A DNA stretch of 64,000 bases from Terriglobia bacterium (GTDB taxonomy: Bacteria > Acidobacteriota > Terriglobia > Terriglobales > Acidobacteriaceae): NCBI GenBank assembly GCA_020072815.1, contig JAIQGE010000021.1, positions 1 to 64,000 of the forward strand. The letters run 5' to 3'. This document shows positions 6,885-64,000 of this stretch, piece after piece (position 1 is the stretch's first letter; the number at the start of each line of letters is the position of its first letter). The position numbers and the translations under genes were made by a program. The notes under the pieces were generated by a model that was not told where the DNA came from, searched no databases, and saw only the letters and a program-made list of their open reading frames with translations.

Positions 6885-8138
6885 ATGAAGACGCAGCCCA
6901 AAAAAAAAGGCATGCAGCCCAAAAAATATGAAGCAGCGATGAAAGAATCCTACTTCTCAGACGATTCCGTCCCCCTGGACCTGCTGCGCGAGCGCGCGTT
7001 CAACATGCGCTGGGCCCAGCAGCCTGCCGGCGTGATCCCGCTCACCGCCGCCGACCCGGACTTTGCCGTGTGTCCGCCGATACAGGAAGCCCTGGTCCGC
7101 TACGTCGGCGACGGCGTGCTGAGCTACGTCCCCCCGGAAGGTCTCCCCAGTTTTCGCGAAGCCGTGGCCGAATGGATGCGCTCGACGCGAGGCTTCGAAT
7201 GCGCGCCAGAGCATGTTTTTGCCACTGACAGCGCCGCTTCCGGTATGGCCGTGGTCGCCCGCGCGTGCCTCAAGCCCGGCGATGAAGCTCTGATCCCCGG
7301 GCCAGTGGATTTTCTGTTGCACCATACCATCGAACTCGCCGGGGCCAAGGCGGTGCGCGTTGCCGTCACGCGCGCCACAACGCCAGAAGAATTTATTGCC
7401 GGTCTGGAAGCGAAAATCACGCCGCGCACCCGCATGTTGTGGCTGTGCAACCCGCATAATCCCCTGGGCGTGGTGTATTCGCGCCAGTGGCTGCAAGCCG
7501 TGGCCGGGTGGGCCGTACGCCGCGGGCTGAGAATTCTTTCCGACGAAATCTGGTCAGACATCGTTTATGAACCGCACCGCCACGTGGCGACGGCATCGCT
7601 AGCGCCGGAAATTGCGCGCAACACCGTCACCGTCTATGGCTTTTCCAAGAATTTTGCTTTGGCCGGCCTGCGCGTCGGCTGCTTGATCTGCAGCGATCCC
7701 GCGTGGAAAAAAGAAATCGTCGCCGCCTCTGACGCCGAGAGCACCGTCTACGGCGTCTCCGTACTGTCGCAGGTGGCGGTGATCGCCGCGCTGCGCGAAG
7801 GGCGCGGCTGGCTGGCGGACTTTGTCTCTCATCTCAAAGCCCAGCGCGACTACACCGTCGAACGGCTGCGCCAGTGGCCGGGCGTAACCGTAGAGCCTCC
7901 GCAAGGGACGTACGTGATCTTCCCCAATACCAAGAGCCTGGACGAAGACTCTGAGCGCCTATGCACCCGTCTTCGCGACGAAGCCAAAGTTGCGCTGGTC
8001 CCCGGGCTGCCACGCTGGTTCGGCGAAGGATCGGCGGGCCATGTGCGAATTTGTTTTGCTACTTCCCGCGGAATTCTCAAAGAGGCGTTTGACCGACTGG
8101 AGCCAGTGGTGGAGAAGATTGCCGCAGATTCGCGCTGA
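6885..8138 (+). CDS. PLP-dependent aminotransferase (class I/II, MalY/PatB-like)
   Basis: A 417-residue fold-type I PLP enzyme. The catalytic lysine lies in VYGFSKNFALAGLRVG, the substrate and PLP residues in LWLCNPHNPLGVVYS, and the Asp-Tyr region in ILSDEIWSDIVYEPH. Overall it resembles MalY/PatB cystathionine beta-lyase-like or aspartate-aminotransferase-like proteins. The Lys-rich first 20 residues look non-native, so an internal ATG (for example 6912 or 6939) could be the true start. The last codons (IAADSR) are supplied by a repeat phrase that begins at 8117, so the present C-terminus may be derived. It sits 10 bases after the SRPBCC gene. Confidence 0.85.
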   Translation: MKTQPKKKGMQPKKYEAAMKESYFSDDSVPLDLLRERAFNMRWAQQPAGVIPLTAADPDFAVCPPIQEALVRYVGDGVLSYVPPEGLPSFREAVAEWMRSTRGFECAPEHVFATDSAASGMAVVARACLKPGDEALIPGPVDFLLHHTIELAGAKAVRVAVTRATTPEEFIAGLEAKITPRTRMLWLCNPHNPLGVVYSRQWLQAVAGWAVRRGLRILSDEIWSDIVYEPHRHVATASLAPEIARNTVTVYGFSKNFALAGLRVGCLICSDPAWKKEIVAASDAESTVYGVSVLSQVAVIAALREGRGWLADFVSHLKAQRDYTVERLRQWPGVTVEPPQGTYVIFPNTKSLDEDSERLCTRLRDEAKVALVPGLPRWFGEGSAGHVRICFATSRGILKEAFDRLEPVVEKIAADSR

Positions 8139-8204
8139 TGACGGATCACGAAGAACTCGGCCGCGAGTGAACGCGATAGCCGCGAATCAAAGTTGACTCA
8201 GGCC
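8117..8204. repeat. Repeat phrase overlapping the 3' end of the aminotransferase gene
   Basis: GCCGCAGATTCGCGCTGATGA...GCCGCGAGTGAACGCGAT...GCGAATC, followed by AAAGTTGACTCAGGCC (8189-8204). The same order of words, including an exact copy of the 16-mer, follows the ubiD-like gene (1793-2009). The first 22 bases lie inside the coding sequence and supply its stop codon. Confidence 0.65.
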
Positions 8205-8244
8205 AGGCGAAGAAGTCCGCTGTGTTCTGTGTGCAGCGCCGGGT

Positions 8245-8273
8245 TTTTCACTCCCGGTGAAAGCAGCTATACT
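8245..8273 (+). promoter_or_regulatory. Putative promoter of the secreted protein at 8333
   Basis: TTTTCA (8245-8250, 4 of 6 matches to TTGACA), a 17-base spacer and TATACT (8268-8273, 5 of 6). Transcription would start near 8280, giving a leader of about 50 bases to the ATG at 8333. Confidence 0.5.
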
Positions 8274-8332
8274 AATTTCAAATCTCGACCCATCCCCCAC
8301 AAATTCTCACTTAGCAATCCCTTGGAGGCGAC

Positions 8333-9574
8333 ATGAAAGCCTGCGTGGCGCGTGCACGTGCAATCCGGTTCGTCCTGTTTCTTTTGACCGCTAGCTCGCT
8401 GTTGGCCGCACAGACCCAGACGTTTGATCTTGTCTCCTTCACGCCGCCCGCGGGTTGGGCTGCCTCCCAGGACAGCGACCATGTCGTATTCACCTTCATT
8501 GACAACGCGGCCAAAACCTTCGTGATGCTGGCGGTGTACAACAGCGCGCCGGGATCGGGCGATGCCGAAAAAGATTTTGTGAGCGAATGGAAAGACGTGG
8601 TCGCCAAGAGCTTTTCCGCGGGCAGCGCCCCGGCATCGGCTGCCGGCCAGTCGCAGGGCGGGTTCAAGTTTCGCCAGGGCAGCGCGCAGGTCAAGCAGCA
8701 GAACGGCCAGCCAGCGTATGTCCGCCTCATGGTGTTTCCGGCAGGAAAGCGACGCTTCTCCGTGATGATGGTCGCCACCAACGAGAAAGCTCTGGAAGCG
8801 CGTCAAGCGGCGGCGCAATCTTTTCTGGACAGCATGAGACTGGTCGCGCCGACCGCGGCTTCCGCTCCCGCCCCTGCGTCTAGCAGCAGCGGAGCACGCA
8901 GCGGGCCCAGCGCCGCGCCGCGTCCCGGCAAAGGCCTCTCCGGAGTCTGGATGGGATTCAAGACCTATGTCGGCAACTACGAGCCGCAACCGCGCTGGTA
9001 CACCTTTTACGATGACGGCCAGATCTTTGAAGACATTCCGCGTGCGGGCTTTTTGGGATTTGATCGCAGCGCCAGCCAGTCCGATTCCGGCCAGCGCAGC
9101 TACTGGGGTACGTACAGCTTCTCGAACAGCTCCGGCTCCATCACCAAACCCGGCGTGAAATATCCTGAGGCGCTGCAGAGCGAAGGCGCCGGAAAACTCA
9201 AGATTGACAGCGCCCACTTTTACCTTTGCCAGTCCGTGGACGGCCTTCGCTTGCAAGGCGCGTGGACCAGCCTGGCCAATCCCAACGATCCTGATCTTGA
9301 CCGCTGGCCGGTGGGGAAGAGGCCGATCTTCCGGTTTTCGAGCGACGGAAAATTCGCGGATGAGGGCGTGTTCGCCACTTTCTTGAAGTCGGGCGACCCG
9401 CGCCAGGACGCCGCCGGCACGGGAACCTATGAGATTCGCGACTTCACGTTGATCCTTCGATTCTCGGATGGCCGCGTGAAGCAGTTGGCGATTACCGCCA
9501 TGCTGGGCGCGAATGCGGCGGCGTCGAATGACACGCTGTACATCGCCCGCAGCCGGTTCCAGAAGAGGAAGTAG
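8333..9574 (+). CDS. Exported protein of unknown function
   Basis: A 413-residue protein with a clear signal peptide (basic MKACVARARAIRF, hydrophobic core, cleavage near LLAAQTQ). TGGAGG at 8323-8328 is four bases from the ATG. The first half (about 25-170) has the look of a domain that measures damage or fit to a secreted substrate (SFTPPAGWAASQDSDHVVFT), like PsbP/DUF1795-type domains. A Ser/Ala/Pro-rich linker (about 180-205) leads to a C-terminal half beginning GLSGVWMGFKTYVGNYEPQP, a lipocalin-like beta-rich segment. No catalytic motif was recognised. Confidence 0.7.
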   Translation: MKACVARARAIRFVLFLLTASSLLAAQTQTFDLVSFTPPAGWAASQDSDHVVFTFIDNAAKTFVMLAVYNSAPGSGDAEKDFVSEWKDVVAKSFSAGSAPASAAGQSQGGFKFRQGSAQVKQQNGQPAYVRLMVFPAGKRRFSVMMVATNEKALEARQAAAQSFLDSMRLVAPTAASAPAPASSSSGARSGPSAAPRPGKGLSGVWMGFKTYVGNYEPQPRWYTFYDDGQIFEDIPRAGFLGFDRSASQSDSGQRSYWGTYSFSNSSGSITKPGVKYPEALQSEGAGKLKIDSAHFYLCQSVDGLRLQGAWTSLANPNDPDLDRWPVGKRPIFRFSSDGKFADEGVFATFLKSGDPRQDAAGTGTYEIRDFTLILRFSDGRVKQLAITAMLGANAAASNDTLYIARSRFQKRK

Positions 9575-54427: not shown

Positions 54428-54907
54428 TCAGTTCACAGTTTTCTGCTTTCCAAACAAGATCGTCCACGCCAGAAGAATCGCTCCAACCACAATTGCGCTG
54501 TCGGCGACGTTGAACGGCGGCCAGTGGTGCGTGCCCACGTAGAAATCCAGGAAATCGGTGACCGTGCCCTTGGCTACGCGGTCCCACAGATTTCCTAACG
54601 CGCCGCCCAGGACCAGGGACAGTGCGACAGACACCGCCGTCAGCCGTTCGCCGCTCTTCCAGATGAAAAAGGAAACCATGGCCACCGCCGACAGGGAGAA
54701 AGCTATCAGGCCGGCGGTCCGCCAGTGGGAGGCGGAGTCGGCAAACAAGCTAAACGCCGCGCCGGTATTTTCCCAGTGCGAAAGTTGAAAGAATCCCGGA
54801 ATGATCGGGACATCCTGCATGAGGGGAAGACGCTTCAGCACCAGCCATTTGGTGAGGCGGTCAACCGCGATGACAGCAGCGGCGATCAGGAGTTGGTATT
54901 TCCTCAT
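54428..54907 (-). CDS. lspA: Lipoprotein signal peptidase (copy 1)
   Basis: A 159-residue signal peptidase II, an aspartyl protease that removes lipoprotein signal peptides. Four hydrophobic segments and both catalytic Asp blocks are present: GGALGNLWDRV and PPFNVADSAIVVGAI. It is the downstream copy of a tandem pair (the other is 55019-55507). The two differ at many positions but are complete, so this is an old duplication. Its stop lies only 11 bases from the transglycosylase stop (convergent). Confidence 0.95.
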   Translation of the reverse strand: MRKYQLLIAAAVIAVDRLTKWLVLKRLPLMQDVPIIPGFFQLSHWENTGAAFSLFADSASHWRTAGLIAFSLSAVAMVSFFIWKSGERLTAVSVALSLVLGGALGNLWDRVAKGTVTDFLDFYVGTHHWPPFNVADSAIVVGAILLAWTILFGKQKTVN

Positions 54908-55018: not shown

Positions 55019-55507
55019 TCACTGGCTCATCGCCTTTTCTTCCTGCGGAGACAGGAATATTTCACTCAGCAACAGAAGCGCGCCTATCACGATGGCGCTA
55101 TCGGCCACGTTGAAAGCCGGCCAGTGGTGCGAACCCAGGTAGAAATCCAGGAAGTCAATGACCCGTCCGCTGGCGACGCGGTCCCACAAATTTCCCAGCG
55201 CGCCGCCAAAGACCAAGGACAGGGCAATCGCGGTGGTGTTCATGGCGTTGCCGTTTTTCCAGAGCAAGGCTGATACCACGGCCAGCGCGGCAATGGAGAA
55301 CATGATCAGCATGGCGATCTTCCATTCGGAAGGCGAGTCTGAAAACAGACCGAAGGCCGCGCCCTGGTTCTGGACATGCGTCAGGCGGAAGAGGCCGGGA
55401 ACCACGTCTACGCTGTCATGCAGCATGATCTTCTGGGCGATCGCCCACTTGGTGATCTGGTCAGTGCCTACGACCACGGTCGCAATCAGAAAGTGATACT
55501 TCCTCAT
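55019..55507 (-). CDS. lspA: Lipoprotein signal peptidase (copy 2)
   Basis: A 162-residue signal peptidase II with both catalytic blocks (FGGALGNLWDRVASGR and FNVADSAIVIGAL). It lies 104 bases after ileS, the classic ileS-lspA order. The ATG at 55507 is chosen over a TTG at 55516. The 111-base gap to copy 1 holds a GATCACGGCGAT repeat. Sequence between the two copies is clearly similar (shared HHWPxFNVADSA), indicating duplication in place. Confidence 0.96.
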   Translation of the reverse strand: MRKYHFLIATVVVGTDQITKWAIAQKIMLHDSVDVVPGLFRLTHVQNQGAAFGLFSDSPSEWKIAMLIMFSIAALAVVSALLWKNGNAMNTTAIALSLVFGGALGNLWDRVASGRVIDFLDFYLGSHHWPAFNVADSAIVIGALLLLSEIFLSPQEEKAMSQ

Positions 55508-55611
55508 AGTTCCCAAGCAGCCTAGCTGCGTCTTTCTGTTCCCTTGCGGCTCCGCCGCTTATCAAAAAAGTCCCGGTCTACTTCCCATCCACCGGCGTTC
55601 TTACGGCGTTC

Positions 55612-58563: not shown

Positions 58564-59370
58564 TCACTCGGACGGCCAGCACTTTACGGAGCCGGGAAGA
58601 GCTTTAATATCAGGATGCGGGACGAGAGTTACTTCAACGGGATAAGCAATCACGGACGGGGCTCGCGCGGTTTGCTCAGAGGCCAGCTTCAACTTCTTCT
58701 CAAGACATTCGGGAGTGTCAGTACTTTGAGCCTGGCAGCGACCTTTAGCCAGATTCCGGGCGCTCTCTTCGTAGCCTTTTTTGCAGTCAAGCATGCCGGC
58801 GCTTAGTGCGATCTTTTTCGCGATTCGCTCCCAGCAGGCTGCCTGTTCCTTGGGCAGGATGCACTCGGCATCGATAACGCGGGTGTAATTCATGGCAACC
58901 AGTTTGCCAGGGTGTTCCACAAACTCGATCTGGCCCAAGGCTACGTCCTCAAAAATCTTCTTCCCGGTTTTGGCATCGTAGATCGCAAATCCCATACCTC
59001 CGTTGAGGCCGTCATCAGCGCGGAAAAAGACAAGGTTGTTCTTCACGCCCTTGAAATAGCCGCTCCAGTCGTGAGGTCTAACAATCATCTCTGATTTAGC
59101 GCGAGCGGCCGTACAGGGAGCGGCCACGCCGTTGGCGATAGGCACAATCGCGAGCTTATCAGCGCCCTTTTGTCCCAGATCGACTTCTTTGACCATGAAG
59201 TGCGGGAAAAAATAGCAAGTCACTTTGCCGTGAGTATGCATACTGTACCGGGACGGCCCTAAGTCCACGGTTTGCGTGCGCAACGGCTTATCGAATGAAC
59301 TTGCCGATGCAATTGCCGTCAACGCGAGAAGACTTACAAGAAGGCGGAATCGCACAATTCTCTCCGACAT
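58564..59370 (-). CDS. Exported protein of unknown function, last gene of the iron operon
   Basis: A 268-residue protein with a signal peptide (RFRLLVSLLALTAIASASSFD). It contains a beta-rich middle (KVTCYFFPHFMVKEVDLGQ, GGMGFAIYDAKTGKKIFED) and many Cys in the C-terminal half (CILPKEQAACWERI, CKKGYEE, CQAQSTDTPEC). No family was recognised. It starts 7 bases after the ATPase-DtxR stop, so it is probably co-transcribed with the iron transporter, and could be its periplasmic component. The 108 bases before ileS carry no recognised site. Confidence 0.65.
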   Translation of the reverse strand: MSERIVRFRLLVSLLALTAIASASSFDKPLRTQTVDLGPSRYSMHTHGKVTCYFFPHFMVKEVDLGQKGADKLAIVPIANGVAAPCTAARAKSEMIVRPHDWSGYFKGVKNNLVFFRADDGLNGGMGFAIYDAKTGKKIFEDVALGQIEFVEHPGKLVAMNYTRVIDAECILPKEQAACWERIAKKIALSAGMLDCKKGYEESARNLAKGRCQAQSTDTPECLEKKLKLASEQTARAPSVIAYPVEVTLVPHPDIKALPGSVKCWPSE

Positions 59371-59377
59371 GCGACGT

Positions 59378-60598
59378 TCATTTCTGCTCTACGACCAGCT
59401 TAGCACCCTCATCGCGCCCGGAGAGAGTACGGGAATCCAGGCAACACGGCCCTGCGGGAATGGGGCTGCCATGCGGGCACGTTCGCGGATGGCCCAGAAA
59501 GGTGCAGATGCGGTCGGTGGCTTCAGGGGACAGAATGTGCTCGAACTTGCAGGCCTGTTCGGCGACTTCTTTTTCGTCGGCTACTTGAAACGTGTGGGTG
59601 AAGAGCTGCTCCGCCAGGCGATGGCGGCGGATCACGTCTTCCGCGCGCTTGCGGCCTTTCTCGGTGAAATAAATCATCTGCTCACCGTGACCGGTGGCCT
59701 CGCTGGGCGGACGAAACGCCACGTGGCAGCGGTTGAGAACTTGTTTATGCGTGTGCGGCGCGGCGGTGTGGGCTTCCAGTTCCACCAGTCCCATGGTCTG
59801 CATGCGCTCCAGGGCCATGGACATTGGCAACGCGCCTTCCACTTCCACGCGGCCCAGTTCGGCTGGCTCGCCGTTTTCCGCCAGCACCCAGAGTTCTTCC
59901 AGGACTTCGTCATACTGCTCTTCATCGCCCATGGCAAAGGTTTCCTGCGAAGCAATCTTGCCATGGTGCAGTTCGAGCAGGCGGTCGGCCAGGCGAGCGA
60001 CGTCCGGGTCATGCGTCACCATGATGATGGTGCGTCCCTGGGCGTGCAGGTCGCGCAACTGCCGCAGGACGATTTCTTCATTCACCGCGTCCAGATTGCC
60101 GGTGGGCTCGTCCGCCAGAACGATGTGCGGATCGTTGATCAGCGCGCGCGCGATGCACACGCGCTGCTGCTCGCCGCCGGAAAGCTGCGAAGGCAAGTGG
60201 TCGGCACGATCGAGCAGGCCGATGCGGTCGAGCGCCGCGAGAGCTTCCTTCTTGTCGGTCATGCTGTGGAAGTACTGCGCCAGCATGACGTTTTCCACCG
60301 AGGTGAGGTAAGGGATCAGGTGGAATTGCTGAAAGATGAAACCAATTTTCTCGGCGCGAAAGCGGTTCAGCTCCGCCGGCGTCATCTGCGAGACGTTGAC
60401 GCCGTGAATCCAGATTTCGCCTCTGGTGGGCTGGTCCAGACAGCCGAGCAGGTTCACCAGCGTGGATTTGCCTGAGCCCGAAGGGCCCATGATGGCCAGC
60501 CATTCGCCGGGAGCCACGGTCAGGGAAACGTTATCCAGCGCGCGCACTTCGACGTTGCTTTTGTAGACGCGGGTGACGTTTTTGAGTTCAATCGGCAT
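59378..60598 (-). CDS. ABC transporter ATPase fused to a DtxR-type metal-dependent regulator
   Basis: A 406-residue fusion. Residues 1-220 are a MacB/LolD-type ABC ATPase: Walker A GPSGSGKST (38-46), signature LSGGEQQRV (139-147), Walker B IVLADE (159-164) and the switch His (196). Residues about 230-400 are a DtxR/MntR-type repressor: a winged helix (DEVLEELWVLAENGEPAEL ... MALERMQTMGLVEL), then the metal and dimer domain with H326/E330 and C350-x2-E353-H354, matching the Cys102/Glu105/His106 ligands of DtxR, and LGHPRTCPHGSPIP. The DtxR His98 equivalent is Ala. It overlaps the upstream permease by one base (TAATG). A motor ATPase that could sense Fe2+ or Mn2+ and perhaps bind DNA; this function is an inference. 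Confidence 0.9.
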   Translation of the reverse strand: MPIELKNVTRVYKSNVEVRALDNVSLTVAPGEWLAIMGPSGSGKSTLVNLLGCLDQPTRGEIWIHGVNVSQMTPAELNRFRAEKIGFIFQQFHLIPYLTSVENVMLAQYFHSMTDKKEALAALDRIGLLDRADHLPSQLSGGEQQRVCIARALINDPHIVLADEPTGNLDAVNEEIVLRQLRDLHAQGRTIIMVTHDPDVARLADRLLELHHGKIASQETFAMGDEEQYDEVLEELWVLAENGEPAELGRVEVEGALPMSMALERMQTMGLVELEAHTAAPHTHKQVLNRCHVAFRPPSEATGHGEQMIYFTEKGRKRAEDVIRRHRLAEQLFTHTFQVADEKEVAEQACKFEHILSPEATDRICTFLGHPRTCPHGSPIPAGPCCLDSRTLSGRDEGAKLVVEQK

Positions 60599-61713
60599 TA
60601 TTCCCCTCGGAGTATTCCCGCAGGCTGAATTTGTTGCAACAGACGCAACGGCGCGGTGGACGCCGCCAGCGCCAGCAAAATGCTGCCCAGCAATACCGGA
60701 GCGAGCAAGAGCGGTTGCGGCCAGATGGCGGCGGCGAAATTCGCTCTGCCGATCCAGAACGCGACGGCGCTGCCCAGCATATACCCAGCAGCGGCGCCGG
60801 CCAGCGCCAGCAGGGAAGATTCGGCGGCGAAGAGAAAGTTTACTGTGCGGTTGGATGCGCCCAGGGCCTTCATCACGGCAAAATCTTTGCGGCGTTCCAG
60901 AACGGAGCTGGTAAACGTGGCCACCATGCACAGCATGATCAGCGCCACCACCGCGGCGGACGCCGACAGCACCAGGGAACGCGTCTTGCCGATGACCGCC
61001 GTCTGCGCCTGCGTGATCTGGCGGACCGGTTTGACTTCAGCCTGGGGCAGGGCAGAGGCCAGCCTGGCGATGGCGTCCTGAATGTCGCGCGGGCGGCCAT
61101 CCACGCGGACCAAAGCCGTGCTGGGCTGCACGCCCGTCCAGCGCACAAAATCATCGAGGGGGACATAGATGCGGCTGTCATCGTCAGAGCCAGAGTGGAA
61201 CGTGGCCTGCGGACGAATTTCTGCTTTGTCCTTGCCGAACGAAACTTTAAAGGCTGAGCCGCGTGAAAGAGTTTCCGCGGCGCGCGATCCGATGAGCGCG
61301 TTGCCGGCGTGCGGCTCGCCAATCGCCCACCACGAATTCAGCTTGGTGAGCTTGGCGAGATCGGCGCCGCCGACCACAACTTTTGATCCGTCAGGCGCGG
61401 TGGCGATGGCATACGCCAACGGAACAACTTCGCCTTTGCCGCCGAGCGCCGCGCTGATCTTGCCCAGCTCATCTGCGCTGAGAGTGCCCGAGGTCTTGCT
61501 GACAATCACGTTGGCGCCAAAGTTGCGGAATTCGCGGCTGAGCTTGTTTTCCAAATCGTAATAGACGGTAAGCCCTGCGGTGGCGATAGTCGCGACCACG
61601 GCCACTGAGATCAGCGCCGTCAGTGCGCGGTCTTTGCGGACCCAGGCCGCGCGGACTAGCAAGCGCAGAAAAAGCTGGCGGCCTGTCATTTCCTTGCTTC
61701 GCCGGTCGCTCAT
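60598..61713 (-). CDS. FtsX/MacB-type ABC permease
   Basis: A 371-residue permease of the FtsX/MacB family: an N-terminal membrane helix (RALTALISVAVVATIATAGL), a MacB periplasmic-core-like domain (about 60-240) and three C-terminal helices (SASAAVVALIMLCMVATFTS, LFAAESSLLALAGAAAGYML). It overlaps the next permease by four bases (ATGA) and the ATPase by one. Family members shuttle membrane-embedded or periplasmic substrates by mechanotransmission rather than true translocation. Confidence 0.9.
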   Translation of the reverse strand: MSDRRSKEMTGRQLFLRLLVRAAWVRKDRALTALISVAVVATIATAGLTVYYDLENKLSREFRNFGANVIVSKTSGTLSADELGKISAALGGKGEVVPLAYAIATAPDGSKVVVGGADLAKLTKLNSWWAIGEPHAGNALIGSRAAETLSRGSAFKVSFGKDKAEIRPQATFHSGSDDDSRIYVPLDDFVRWTGVQPSTALVRVDGRPRDIQDAIARLASALPQAEVKPVRQITQAQTAVIGKTRSLVLSASAAVVALIMLCMVATFTSSVLERRKDFAVMKALGASNRTVNFLFAAESSLLALAGAAAGYMLGSAVAFWIGRANFAAAIWPQPLLLAPVLLGSILLALAASTAPLRLLQQIQPAGILRGE

Positions 61714-62996
61714 GCGTCACCCCGCAATACGACCGCCGGTTCAAACAGCACGGCTTTGCGAACCGCACTTGCGCTGCCTAAAAAGGTCACCAGAAAGGCA
61801 GTAAAGATGACCACGGCCAGCACCACCGGGTGGACTTCAATGGCCGAACCGAAAATGTTTATCCCAATGCGCCGCACCAGCACTACGCCGGCAAGAAAGC
61901 CGATCACGCCACCGGCCAGCGCCAGCAGCCCGGCTTCAGTAAAGAACAAGGACGCCACCACTCCGTTGCTGGCGCCCAGGGATTTCATCAAGCCGACTTC
62001 ATTGCGGCGCTCAAGCACGGTAGCGGCCATGGCGGCGGAGATCGCCAGCGCGGCCGCCAGCAGCGTGGCGAAGGTCAACAGCAGCATCATCCCGGAGACG
62101 CTGCTAAGCAGCTTGCCCTGGTTTTGTTCCACCTGGCGGATCTGGTCCACGCGCACGTTAGGCAGCGCCTCATGGATCTGGTAGGCAATGGAGTTGGCGT
62201 AGGGCGAGCAATACCAGCGGTCGCGTAGTGCGGGAGTCATCTTGTTGGGGTCGCGACGGCCAAACGCGTCTTCCGGCTTGGTAAGCGCACTGACCACCAC
62301 TCGGCGGACGACGCCCGGGTGCCCCAAGATTTGTTGGACGATATGCAGTGGCGCGACGATGGACTGGTCCTCTGCTCCGCCAGTGCTGAGAATGCCGCTG
62401 ACTTGCAACTTGCGTCCGCCGACTTCCAGTTCGTCGCCAAGCTTGATGCCCGCCCGTTCCGCCAGCTTGCTGCCGACGAGCACCTGAGGATCGTGCGTCT
62501 GCGGCCACTCGCGATAGTCCTGCGGCCATGCTCCGGTGACTTGCCACCACGCGTTCACGCTGCGCGCGCCGGTGGCAAACTCTTCTTTGCCGTAACGGAG
62601 CGGCTGCTCAAAATATGTGCCGATAAGTTCAGCATCAACTTTGCGTCCGTTGCTGGAGAAAGTCTTCGACTCGGAAAGAAAGGGAACAAAGCCCTTGATG
62701 TTGTGTCCCCAGAAAATGCCTTTGAGCTTGGGCAGGTCGGACTCCGGGATGAACGCGCCTTGGCTCGCCGGTTTCAGGTCCACACCGCCCAGGTTTACGT
62801 CCAGCGTGTCTTCGATTGGAGTGAGCACCAGGTTGGCGCCGTATGTGCGCAATTCCTGGTTGATTTTGTCGCCCACGTCATTGCCCAGGGCGATCATGGC
62901 CGTGGCAATGCTCATGCCCAACGCGATGGCCAGCAGGGCCACTGACTTGCGCCGCTTCTGGCGGCGGAACGACTCGAAAAGAAGACGGAGAAACAT
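61710..62996 (-). CDS. FtsX/MacB-type ABC permease
   Basis: A 428-residue partner permease. The start FLRLLFESFRRQKRRKSVALL, MacB-core region and FtsX block (LMKSLGASNGVVASLFFTEA) are seen, with C-terminal membrane helices. It is paired with the permease at 60598, as in the paired permeases (Cj1661/Cj1662 type) of p19/FTR1 iron operons. It starts one base after the stop of the FTR1-DUF2318 gene. Confidence 0.9.
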   Translation of the reverse strand: MFLRLLFESFRRQKRRKSVALLAIALGMSIATAMIALGNDVGDKINQELRTYGANLVLTPIEDTLDVNLGGVDLKPASQGAFIPESDLPKLKGIFWGHNIKGFVPFLSESKTFSSNGRKVDAELIGTYFEQPLRYGKEEFATGARSVNAWWQVTGAWPQDYREWPQTHDPQVLVGSKLAERAGIKLGDELEVGGRKLQVSGILSTGGAEDQSIVAPLHIVQQILGHPGVVRRVVVSALTKPEDAFGRRDPNKMTPALRDRWYCSPYANSIAYQIHEALPNVRVDQIRQVEQNQGKLLSSVSGMMLLLTFATLLAAALAISAAMAATVLERRNEVGLMKSLGASNGVVASLFFTEAGLLALAGGVIGFLAGVVLVRRIGINIFGSAIEVHPVVLAVVIFTAFLVTFLGSASAVRKAVLFEPAVVLRGDA

Positions 62997-62997
62997 C

Positions 62998-64000
62998 TTA
63001 GTGTGAGAATTGTCCGAGCTGTGGCATGAGGTCTGTGACTTTTATCACTACCGCATCGCCTTCCTGGGTTGATTGCAGCGGAATCGGATTGCAGCCGCCG
63101 GGCTGGCCTACGCTCTGCGGGTTGATGGGTGCCGCGCAATTCTTGCAGACGATCCCGTTGTTGCCTTTGTAAAAGCCCACGGCGCCGCAGATCTGGCAAG
63201 CATCGAAGATCGCTGCCACTTTGCCGTCCGGCTTGCGATAGAGCAAAAAACGCACTTTCACGCCCTGTACGTCGGCGCTGAAGCGGCGCAGGTCGCCTTC
63301 CGCCAGGTCTTTGTCGGGGATACTGGCGCGGCCGTCTTTGTCGAACGTGACGGGCGTGGCTTCCGTCAGCTTGGGGCCTTCGGCGTAAATAAACTCGGCG
63401 GTGACCATAAAGATAAAGATGAATGCGGTGCCCACCACCAGGTTGGCCCACAGGCGTTCGCGACGCTCGGTCCACTCCTGCTTGCGGGCCTCGGCTTTAT
63501 TAGCGGGGGCATTTTGATTGGCTGAGGCCGTGCCAGCCGGCTGCGAAGGCGCACTGGCGTCCGGCTTGCGCCGCCGATATTCCAGCAGCACCATCAGCGC
63601 CGCCAGGGCCAGCATGGTGACAGGGAAGAAGTAATCATTGCGGACGATAGGCCCGATCAGCGCCATCTCGCGCTTGCTGGAGCGGATCACGCCGGTTTCA
63701 AACAGCTCATGCACGCCGCTGATGGCCAACTGGGCGGCGACGAAGAAAAGAATAATGGTGGTGACGCGGAAGAACTTCCGCAGGTCCACGCGCACGCTGC
63801 CCTTCACAAACATCACGCCAAAGACCACGGCTAGGGCCACGCCGGCCAGCGTGCCCAGGAAACTCATCAGTTCGGTGGAATTCAGGGTCACGCCGGAGAG
63901 GATGACCACGGTTTCCAGGCCTTCGCGAAACACCATGAGGAAGACAAAAGCGAATAGTCCCCATCGCGACCCGCCGCCGGCCAGCGCGCCCACTTTGCCT
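62998..64000 (-). CDS. FTR1-type iron permease fused to DUF2318 (partial, runs off the right edge)
   Basis: The visible 331 residues (GTG at 63993 is only the first possible start inside the window; the frame stays open to the edge). A REGLE motif (FLMVFREGLETVVIL) matches the second iron-binding motif of FTR1, and the helices that follow match the second half of EfeU, so the first half lies beyond the edge. After helices and a Gln/Ala-rich loop comes a DUF2318 domain: IFDACQICGAVGFYKGNNG with CKNC, a Cys-rich metal or heme-like site. In Campylobacter these are separate genes. Confidence 0.9.
   Translation of the reverse strand, partial: GKVGALAGGGSRWGLFAFVFLMVFREGLETVVILSGVTLNSTELMSFLGTLAGVALAVVFGVMFVKGSVRVDLRKFFRVTTIILFFVAAQLAISGVHELFETGVIRSSKREMALIGPIVRNDYFFPVTMLALAALMVLLEYRRRKPDASAPSQPAGTASANQNAPANKAEARKQEWTERRERLWANLVVGTAFIFIFMVTAEFIYAEGPKLTEATPVTFDKDGRASIPDKDLAEGDLRRFSADVQGVKVRFLLYRKPDGKVAAIFDACQICGAVGFYKGNNGIVCKNCAAPINPQSVGQPGGCNPIPLQSTQEGDAVVIKVTDLMPQLGQFSH

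Follow-up and report, generated by a model that had tools for sequence, protein, structure and literature searches.

The first 64,000 nucleotides of contig JAIQGE010000021.1 from a Terriglobia bacterium (GenBank assembly GCA_020072815.1; this whole stretch is hereafter "the window") encode, close to their right end, a 406-residue protein in which the ATPase of an ATP-binding cassette (ABC) transporter is joined to a DtxR-derived module (Table 1). Repressors of the DtxR family, whose activity depends on metal, are textbook knowledge. The ATPase-DtxR fusion is real and conserved, and we consider it somewhat more likely than not, judging from sequence comparisons, that it serves a Fur-controlled FTR1-FtrD/ABC system as its ATPase subunit, with feedback from cytosolic iron reaching the ATPase through a module that no longer acts as a repressor. 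Such feedback agrees with a joint of fixed length between ATPase and module, a weakly conserved helix-turn-helix (HTH), a retained metal domain and a Fur-type promoter.

The gene is one continuous frame that begins with ATG at position 60598 and shares one base with the stop codon of the preceding permease gene (TAATG), which bears out what the initial annotation had read from the sequence. Pfam recognizes ABC_tran at residues 21-166 (E = 6e-36) and Fe_dep_repr_C (PF02742) at residues 312-381 (E = 1.1e-27). When contigs were scanned with one genome per species and the best 80 loci kept, ATPase and module shared one frame at 57 loci, some ending at a contig edge and all acidobacterial by title. 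The remainder comprised 20 closed ATPases without the module, two loci cut by the contig end before the module (L055, L069) and one broken locus (L061), a metagenomic record whose ATPase-module frame (7995-9495) is interrupted and partly duplicated, probably through an assembly fault. Two intact separate genes for ATPase and module, the finding named beforehand as evidence against a genuine fusion, occurred at none of the best 80 loci, and BLAST of the retrieved DNA surrounding the 20 closed unfused ATPases (mostly from Edaphobacter, Granulicella and their kin by title) gave no module match. Fused proteins, which the initial annotation had proposed to look for, also appeared in a phylum sample of 396 Acidobacteriota genomes, in which up to nine candidates per genome were scored with a module profile. 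At a cut-off of 98 bits, chosen by us (the next match scored 88.8 bits), 67 places were found: 20 ATPase fusions and 47 DtxR proteins ending in FeoA (feoB-type proteins, below), with genomes G125 and G360 each holding one of both. A plasmid search with the whole protein counted 42 records in which a single place spans 80% of the query; the 15 matches listed cover the ATPase part only.

The junction between the two parts is nearly invariant. In 71 of 73 fused proteins the first helix of the module lies 36 residues from the VTHD switch of the ATPase, and in the structure model this helix begins directly after the last ATPase strand. A tree of the ATPase with 50 rows, in which 31 of 77 fused proteins were included and the long rows from the E. 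coli plasmid and Fusobacterium have uncertain positions, requires three changes of fusion state, and enforcing a single fused clade costs 12.6 log-units (approximately unbiased test, p = 0.094). In it the unfused Edaphobacter/Granulicella clade adjoins the fused Terriglobia with modest support. A single early gain of the fusion, followed by loss in the Edaphobacter/Granulicella clade, is plausible. In 10 genomes searched, this clade also had no close orthologue of the window's Fur.

The company of the fusion gene indicates which transporter it serves. The operon runs from a single FTR1-FtrD protein through two permeases to the fusion, which comes last, and is an iron-uptake system of the Campylobacter P19-FTR1 type. 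The FTR1-FtrD gene starts at contig position 64290, outside the window, and its full open reading frame (ORF) has 430 codons' worth of protein (430 aa, L085). FtrD-like domains were present in 70 of the 396 sampled genomes, all 20 fused genomes among them, and for 20 of 20 fused genes the FtrD gene shared a contig with the fusion at a distance of 3.0-3.4 kb. The window's genome as a whole contains a PF02742 domain only once, in the fusion, and only one Fur-family protein; it gave no match to P19 (PF10634) or FeoB_C. Within the ATPase, Walker A (residues 38-44), the signature (from residue 139) and the switch histidine (H196) stand where the initial annotation had placed them, as do H326, E330, C350, E353 and H354 of the module. 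The top NCBIfam models for this part were MacB, LolD and FtsE, the best 25 of 193 matches all falling under their cut-offs, and Foldseek matched it to MJ0796, MacB and LolD. A LolD/MacB-type nucleotide-binding domain accompanied by FtsX permeases corresponds to the LolD/MacB (type VII) class of transporter.

The metal-binding half of the module has been retained to a high degree. Among 58 aligned fused proteins, H326 and E330 were kept in 58 each, E353 in 57, C350, H354 and E231 in 54 each and E234 in 53. The primary ligand set of DtxR (Met10, Cys102, Glu105, His106) is matched by E231, C350, E353 and H354, with E231 at the position of DtxR Met10 and MntR Asp8, so that an acid replaces the methionine as in MntR and PgMntR. 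In PgMntR, an acid-Cys-Glu-His site binds Mn(II), and the protein also binds Fe(II) (PMC4805248). The equivalent of DtxR His98 is indeed alanine in the window's protein (A346), as had been noted, yet it is glutamate in 48 of the 58 aligned proteins. More constant still than these classical sensor ligands are a C-x8-CPHGxPIPxGxCC motif and the sequence RR[HQ]RLAE. The latter was found in 76 of 77 fused proteins (exception L159), and CPH...CC in 76 of 77 fused (L004 is cut) and 44 of 46 feoB-type proteins (not L189 or L191). Further potential ligands lie in the wing, whose length was measured in 67 of 73 fused proteins: the pattern H-x(4-8)-H-x-H-[KR]-x3-[NS]-x-C-H occurred in 49 of 49 long-wing proteins, the window's included. 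The cysteine motif and the histidines and cysteine of the wing may therefore provide additional metal or iron-sulphur binding.

The DNA-binding half tells a different story, as the identity tests place the fused proteins well apart from canonical DtxR in the HTH/wing core and close to it in the metal domain. Between non-redundant members, core identity was 0.23-0.24 in fused, 0.21-0.22 in feoB-type and 0.47-0.49 in canonical DtxR proteins (shuffled 0.16-0.20); for the metal domain the values were 0.63, 0.57-0.58 and 0.64-0.67. The first run covered 150 rows and left 10 unparsed (eight fused, one feoB-type, one canonical). A looser parser reached 155 rows, adding L150, L151, L152 and L161 (fused) and L191 (feoB-type) and leaving L004, L104, L170, L171, L189 and L198 unparsed. 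Under three ways of counting, the core identities were 0.23/0.29/0.30 for fused (shuffled 0.16/0.22/0.24), 0.22/0.24/0.25 for feoB-type (0.18/0.20/0.21) and 0.49/0.51/0.51 for canonical proteins (0.20/0.20/0.22), and the family-wide result held. The canonical set consisted of 32 DtxR proteins from the phylum, some of them duplicates, selected by PHGDPIP and E[ND]YL; the lack of CPHG...CC in this set is circular, given the selection pattern, and was not used.

The same region is acidic. The N-terminal domain has a median net charge of -6.5 to -7 in fused and -5 in feoB-type proteins, compared with 0 in canonical ones, and within the fused set the median was -8 for long-wing and -3 for short-wing proteins. 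In L042 most of the HTH is deleted while the wing insertion is kept, and in L198 only 31 residues are left in this region. A 185-residue model of the module (predicted local distance difference test score, pLDDT, 90.8) has helices at residues 2-20, 38-47, 92-115, 121-132, 137-146 and 163-182 and none between residues 21 and 37, presumably the place of DtxR helix 2. Foldseek ranked IdeR/DtxR structures best for this model (E = 1e-7; 2it0_A over 156 columns, root-mean-square deviation 2.5). Because the HTH is weakly conserved, acidic or deleted, and helix 2 is missing from the model, we infer that DNA binding has been lost and that the module is probably no longer a working repressor. An earlier description of the protein as an ATPase followed by a complete DtxR regulator consequently needs qualifying: Pfam supports both the ATPase and the metal domain, and the winged helix does not justify the word "complete".

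Transcriptional control of the operon may come from elsewhere. The initial annotation had proposed looking for a palindromic site at the operon promoter beyond the right edge of the window, and a palindrome of the Fur type was found there: a promoter-like site (TTGACT-17-TAAAAT) precedes FTR1 and is followed by AATTGAAATTGAAATTGAAATTCATTTTCATAATC. The predicted Fur site is TTGAAATTCATTTTCA. We examined 65 upstream regions, 44 from fused operons and 21 others (two contig-cut, one frame-broken, 18 closed unfused), together with 650 shuffled sequences. Of the 44 fused operons, 34 carried the palindrome TTGAAATTNATTTTCAA (up to three mismatches) ahead of FTR1, compared with 3 of 650 shuffled sequences. 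Of the ten fused operons without this box, five have a GCAACTNAGTTGC palindrome and five have neither (L015, L050, L057, L058, L059); those with GCAACTNAGTTGC in its place are L047, L048, L051, L053 and L054, four of which belong to a Bryobacterales-like clade of the tree. Another palindrome, GACCAAWTTGGTC, was present in 16 of the 21 regions outside the fused set (16 of the 18 closed unfused) and in 0 of 44 fused. In the window's genome, the 16-mer TTGAAATTNATTTTCA is matched perfectly at just two sites, one in the operon promoter and the other 41 bp ahead of the single Fur-family gene; with up to two mismatches it has 19 matches (overlaps counted apart), and the reversed control has 2. Two overlapping one-mismatch copies of the palindrome at G000:C1:19927-19948, close to where a 321-aa ORF begins (L211:1458-2423), mark a possible further Fur target.

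We call this element a putative Fur box because its occurrence follows that of a Fur orthologue in fused genomes, because the corresponding Campylobacter jejuni system has a Fur box, and because it resembles the Fur consensus. In 12 fused genomes searched, an orthologue 74-90% identical to the window's Fur was found in six (L006, L010, L013, L019, L022, L036) and not found in the other six (L014, L047, L048, L051, L053, L058; best match at most 33%). Wherever the orthologue is present and the promoter readable, the box is there (6/6: the window's genome, L006, L010, L019, L022, L036; the promoter of L013 was not extracted). Among the six fused genomes lacking the orthologue, one has the box (L014), four have GCAACTNAGTTGC (L047, L048, L051, L053) and one has neither (L058). 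The box also precedes the fur orthologue itself (up to three mismatches) in four of seven cases (the window's genome, L006, L019 and L036, not L010, L013 or L022; shuffled 1/410), in a test where the fur frame went unrecognized at 7 of 22 Fur loci from fused and 12 of 19 from unfused genomes and one region was cut. Box presence thus tracks the Fur orthologue rather than the module, which speaks for Fur, and the operon would be under the control of this predicted Fur-type box. The C. jejuni system has its Fur box upstream as well (PMC6083913).

The module is not confined to ABC transporters. In the phylum sample, feoB adjoins the gene on the same strand for 44 of the 47 high-scoring proteins that end in FeoA (41 of 44 by script, plus L129, L131 and L191; the misses are L165, L175 and L194, of which L194 lies at a contig edge). 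Outside the phylum, a relative on the Pelobacter propionicus plasmid pPRO1, PPRO_RS18310, directly follows feoB and is annotated as a "metal-dependent transcriptional regulator". The occurrence of one subfamily on two unrelated iron importers fits a sensor that acts on the transporter, though repressors too sit beside their targets. Fur-type boxes stood before feoB for 6 of 32 FeoA-type proteins (shuffled 0/160), which means that this kind of control does not extend to the group as a whole. One survey mentions FeoA fused to DtxR-type domains solely among the sequences removed from it (PMC8980893).

Taken as a mechanism, these features suggest that the module would dimerize and bind cytosolic iron, with Fe2+ most likely held at E231/C350/E353/H354 with help from H326/E330, and that the four conserved cysteines would build a second iron site. 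Metal occupancy would be relayed to the ATPase through the fixed-length joint, and when iron is plentiful the nucleotide-binding domains would most likely be held apart (trans-inhibition). We infer each of these elements: the identity of the metal, its binding, dimerization, direct gating and the inhibitory sign. The initial annotation had suggested either gating of the ATPase by cytosolic metal or a tie between transcription and transport. The fixed joint, the degenerate HTH and the kept ligands favour the former, and the latter is less well supported given the degenerate HTH and a box that tracks the Fur orthologue instead of the module.

Several observations weigh against iron feedback through a non-repressor module. 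The full-length model has a predicted template modelling score (pTM) of 0.58, so the arrangement of the domains is not predicted, and we know of no MetN-like trans-inhibition in MacB/LolD-type ABC transporters. L057-L059 no longer have C350 and H354, and glutamine replaces H326 in 5 of the 20 fused genes from the phylum sample (L144, L150, L151, L152, L161). Within the window's own long-wing clade, identity is 0.50 for the core and 0.78 for the metal domain (8 non-redundant of 47 proteins); relative to the metal domain, the core is about as conserved there as in canonical DtxR, implying that some function of it has been kept in this clade, and the low family-wide value stems from the short-wing groups (23%) and from pairs between groups. 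A related clade, with its 20 closed unfused ATPases, manages without the module altogether. The Fur-type box was found in only 1 of 18 closed unfused operons (L063, two mismatches), as opposed to 34 of 44 fused ones, and the exact 16-mer is absent from 10 unfused genomes, all of which have Fur-family genes, none more than 34% identical to the window's Fur.

Of the other explanations, the one that survives best is still unlikely in our estimation: the module could be a docking, stability or iron-handling domain, either FeoC-like or an iron receiver from the FTR1 pore, which would aid assembly or hand iron on and would not gate ATP hydrolysis by feedback. The four-cysteine motif and RR[HQ]RLAE, which outlast the classical sensor ligands, would suit such a role, as would the presence of the same module next to feoB, and FeoC, a small iron-sulphur partner, shields FeoB from proteolysis (PMC10710835). 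However, the sensor ligands have been kept (C350 and H354 each in 54 of 58 proteins), and a pure docking domain would not need them.

We think it improbable that the module represses its own operon as an iron-dependent repressor that, in the manner of YtgCR, stays attached to the transporter or is cut off from it. This explanation draws on the module being the only PF02742 domain in the genome, on the retention of most metal ligands, on the core identity within the window's clade, and on the co-occurrence of the Fur-type box with the module, such that the module itself could bind the box; moreover, YtgCR, a described permease-DtxR fusion, releases a repressor by cleavage (PMC5599777). Yet family-wide the core is acidic and barely above shuffled sequences in identity, the model lacks helix 2, and the 36-residue joint argues against a flexible, cleavable linker. 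The box, furthermore, tracks the Fur orthologue: it is present in 6 of 6 genomes with the orthologue, and 5 of 6 without it carry another palindrome or none, L014 being the exception. None of the 65 upstream regions came within six mismatches of the DtxR 19-mer operator (shuffled 13/650). That the fusion is a sequencing or assembly artefact can be dismissed for practical purposes: many relatives are metagenome-assembled and the frame of L061 is broken and duplicated, but separate records agree on one frame (57 of the best 80 loci and 20 of 396 genomes), and 71 of 73 fused proteins have the same spacing between ATPase and module.

Iron feedback on the ATPase, if true, would give bacteria a rapid post-translational way to slow iron import in addition to regulating transcription. 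If the sensor sits on the ATPase, the step under control should be ATP hydrolysis, which offers a handle on what the ABC components of FTR1-P19 systems, so far poorly understood, actually do. Tentatively, and with some doubt, we also extend the proposal to the subfamily as a whole: a branch of DtxR may have given up DNA binding and become an iron valve that has a four-cysteine site of its own for iron or an iron-sulphur cluster and is plugged into the FTR1-ABC ATPase and, through FeoA, into FeoB, at least two unrelated ferrous-iron importers. If this branch does act on transporters, "regulators" beside iron genes have been misread, the Pelobacter relative being so annotated.

Table 1. Features of the fusion protein and its operon (window coordinates; the last entry lies beyond the window edge)
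Feature	Position	Strand	Basis or remark
ABC ATPase-DtxR-like fusion protein, 406 aa	59378..60598	-	single frame; Pfam
ABC ATPase part, residues 1-220, LolD/MacB/FtsE type	59939..60598	-	Pfam, NCBIfam, Foldseek
DtxR-derived module, N-terminal part, residues 222-311: helix 1 with E231/E234, degenerate HTH and wing	59666..59935	-	alignment, charge and identity tests, model
Wing insertion, about residues 277-305, with H277, H282, H284, C291, H292	59684..59770	-	
DtxR metal-binding/dimerization domain, residues 312-381 (H326, E330, C350, E353, H354)	59456..59665	-	Pfam PF02742, 1.1e-27
Four-cysteine motif C365-x8-C374PHGSPIPAGPC385C386	59441..59506	-	motif columns invariant in two comparisons
FtsX-type ABC permease 2	60598..61713	-	Pfam FtsX, 1.6e-15; adjoins ATPase in relatives
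MacB/FtsX-type ABC permease 1	61710..62996	-	Pfam MacB_PCD and FtsX
FTR1 iron permease fused to FtrD-like membrane iron-sulphur protein	62998..64000	-	Pfam FTR1, FtrD-like
Promoter-like site and predicted Fur-type box	64300-64362		beyond window edge, upstream of FTR1-FtrD

Other arrangements of DtxR-type domains were encountered in Acidobacteriota. A scan of ten proteins of 330-450 aa returned two ATPase fusions (L124, L126), one ABC-3 permease fusion (L119) and seven DtxR-FeoA proteins, of which L129 and L131 are of the feoB type and the rest have, by eye, a hydrophobic N-terminus. Proteins with such an N-terminus, a DtxR metal domain and FeoA are encoded at L116:5214-6263, L117:5482-6507 and L118:6348-7391, and also in L121, L123, L127, L128 and L134, in frames of 341-402 aa (Pfam was run on L116, L118, L121, L123 and L134). 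A FeoB-like frame adjoins in 8 of 8, and in L116-L118 the gene is divergent from a canonical DtxR; the protein is possibly a membrane-anchored iron sensor for FeoB. The permease-DtxR fusion at L119:6162-7505 is of the YtgCR type and Pfam-confirmed, and L120, L122 and L130 resemble it in size and in having a neighbouring ABC ATPase. In the window, a 268-aa ORF directly downstream of the fusion (58564-59370, minus strand) had no Pfam match at E 1 and no BLAST match listed in the best 80 loci, and two adjacent minus-strand ORFs (54428-54907 and 55019-55516) look by eye like tandem signal peptidase II (LspA) paralogues.

The initial annotation knew of no described ATPase-DtxR fusion, and this stands within the open-licence literature searched, whose titles and abstract openings yielded no report of one; nor was there a model of the fusion among the best 25 of 193 NCBIfam matches. 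Permease-DtxR fusions have been described, and the nearest precedent is YtgC-YtgR of Chlamydia trachomatis, an ABC permease-DtxR fusion whose repressor part is released by cleavage and represses, with orthologous fusions reported in 11 phyla (PMC5599777). Both systems have a subunit of an ABC iron or metal transporter with a C-terminal DtxR-derived iron module, but in YtgCR the module is carried by a membrane ABC-3 permease, whereas here it is carried by the ATPase of another transporter class and has a degenerate HTH. DtxR, IdeR and MntR share the metal-binding/dimerization domain; here, in contrast, the HTH is degenerate, the FeoA/SH3 domain is absent, and an extra CPHG...CC motif and a fused ATPase are present. 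The feoB-linked DtxR-FeoA proteins belong to the same subfamily and have CPHG...CC, an acidic and variable HTH region and an iron importer as neighbour, but FeoA takes the place of the ATPase and the partner is FeoB. FeoC, a winged helix whose complex with NFeoB has reportedly been studied in Klebsiella pneumoniae, provides a functional parallel, as a small cytosolic iron-sulphur protein acting on an iron transporter and not on DNA; we claim no sequence relation.

The C. jejuni 1649-1656 system (P19-FTR1-FtrD-ABC) has FTR1, an FtrD-like protein, two ABC permeases and an ATPase in the same order. Its P19 sits between FTR1 and FtrD (1649-1654, PMC6083913), whereas here FTR1 and FtrD form one protein, P19 was not found in the genome and the module is attached to the ATPase. 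The same gene order recurs in an operon on an E. coli plasmid, where the ATPase is 231 aa long and without the module. The closest analogues of the proposed feedback are MetN and ModC, ABC ATPases with substrate-sensing C-terminal domains that are inhibited by the imported substrate (PMC10710835). The fusion resembles MetN (C2) and ModC in having a C-terminal cytosolic domain on the ATPase, which in those proteins senses what is imported; their sensing domains are of other folds, while here the domain is DtxR-derived, the permeases are of the FtsX/MacB type and the regulatory function is predicted.

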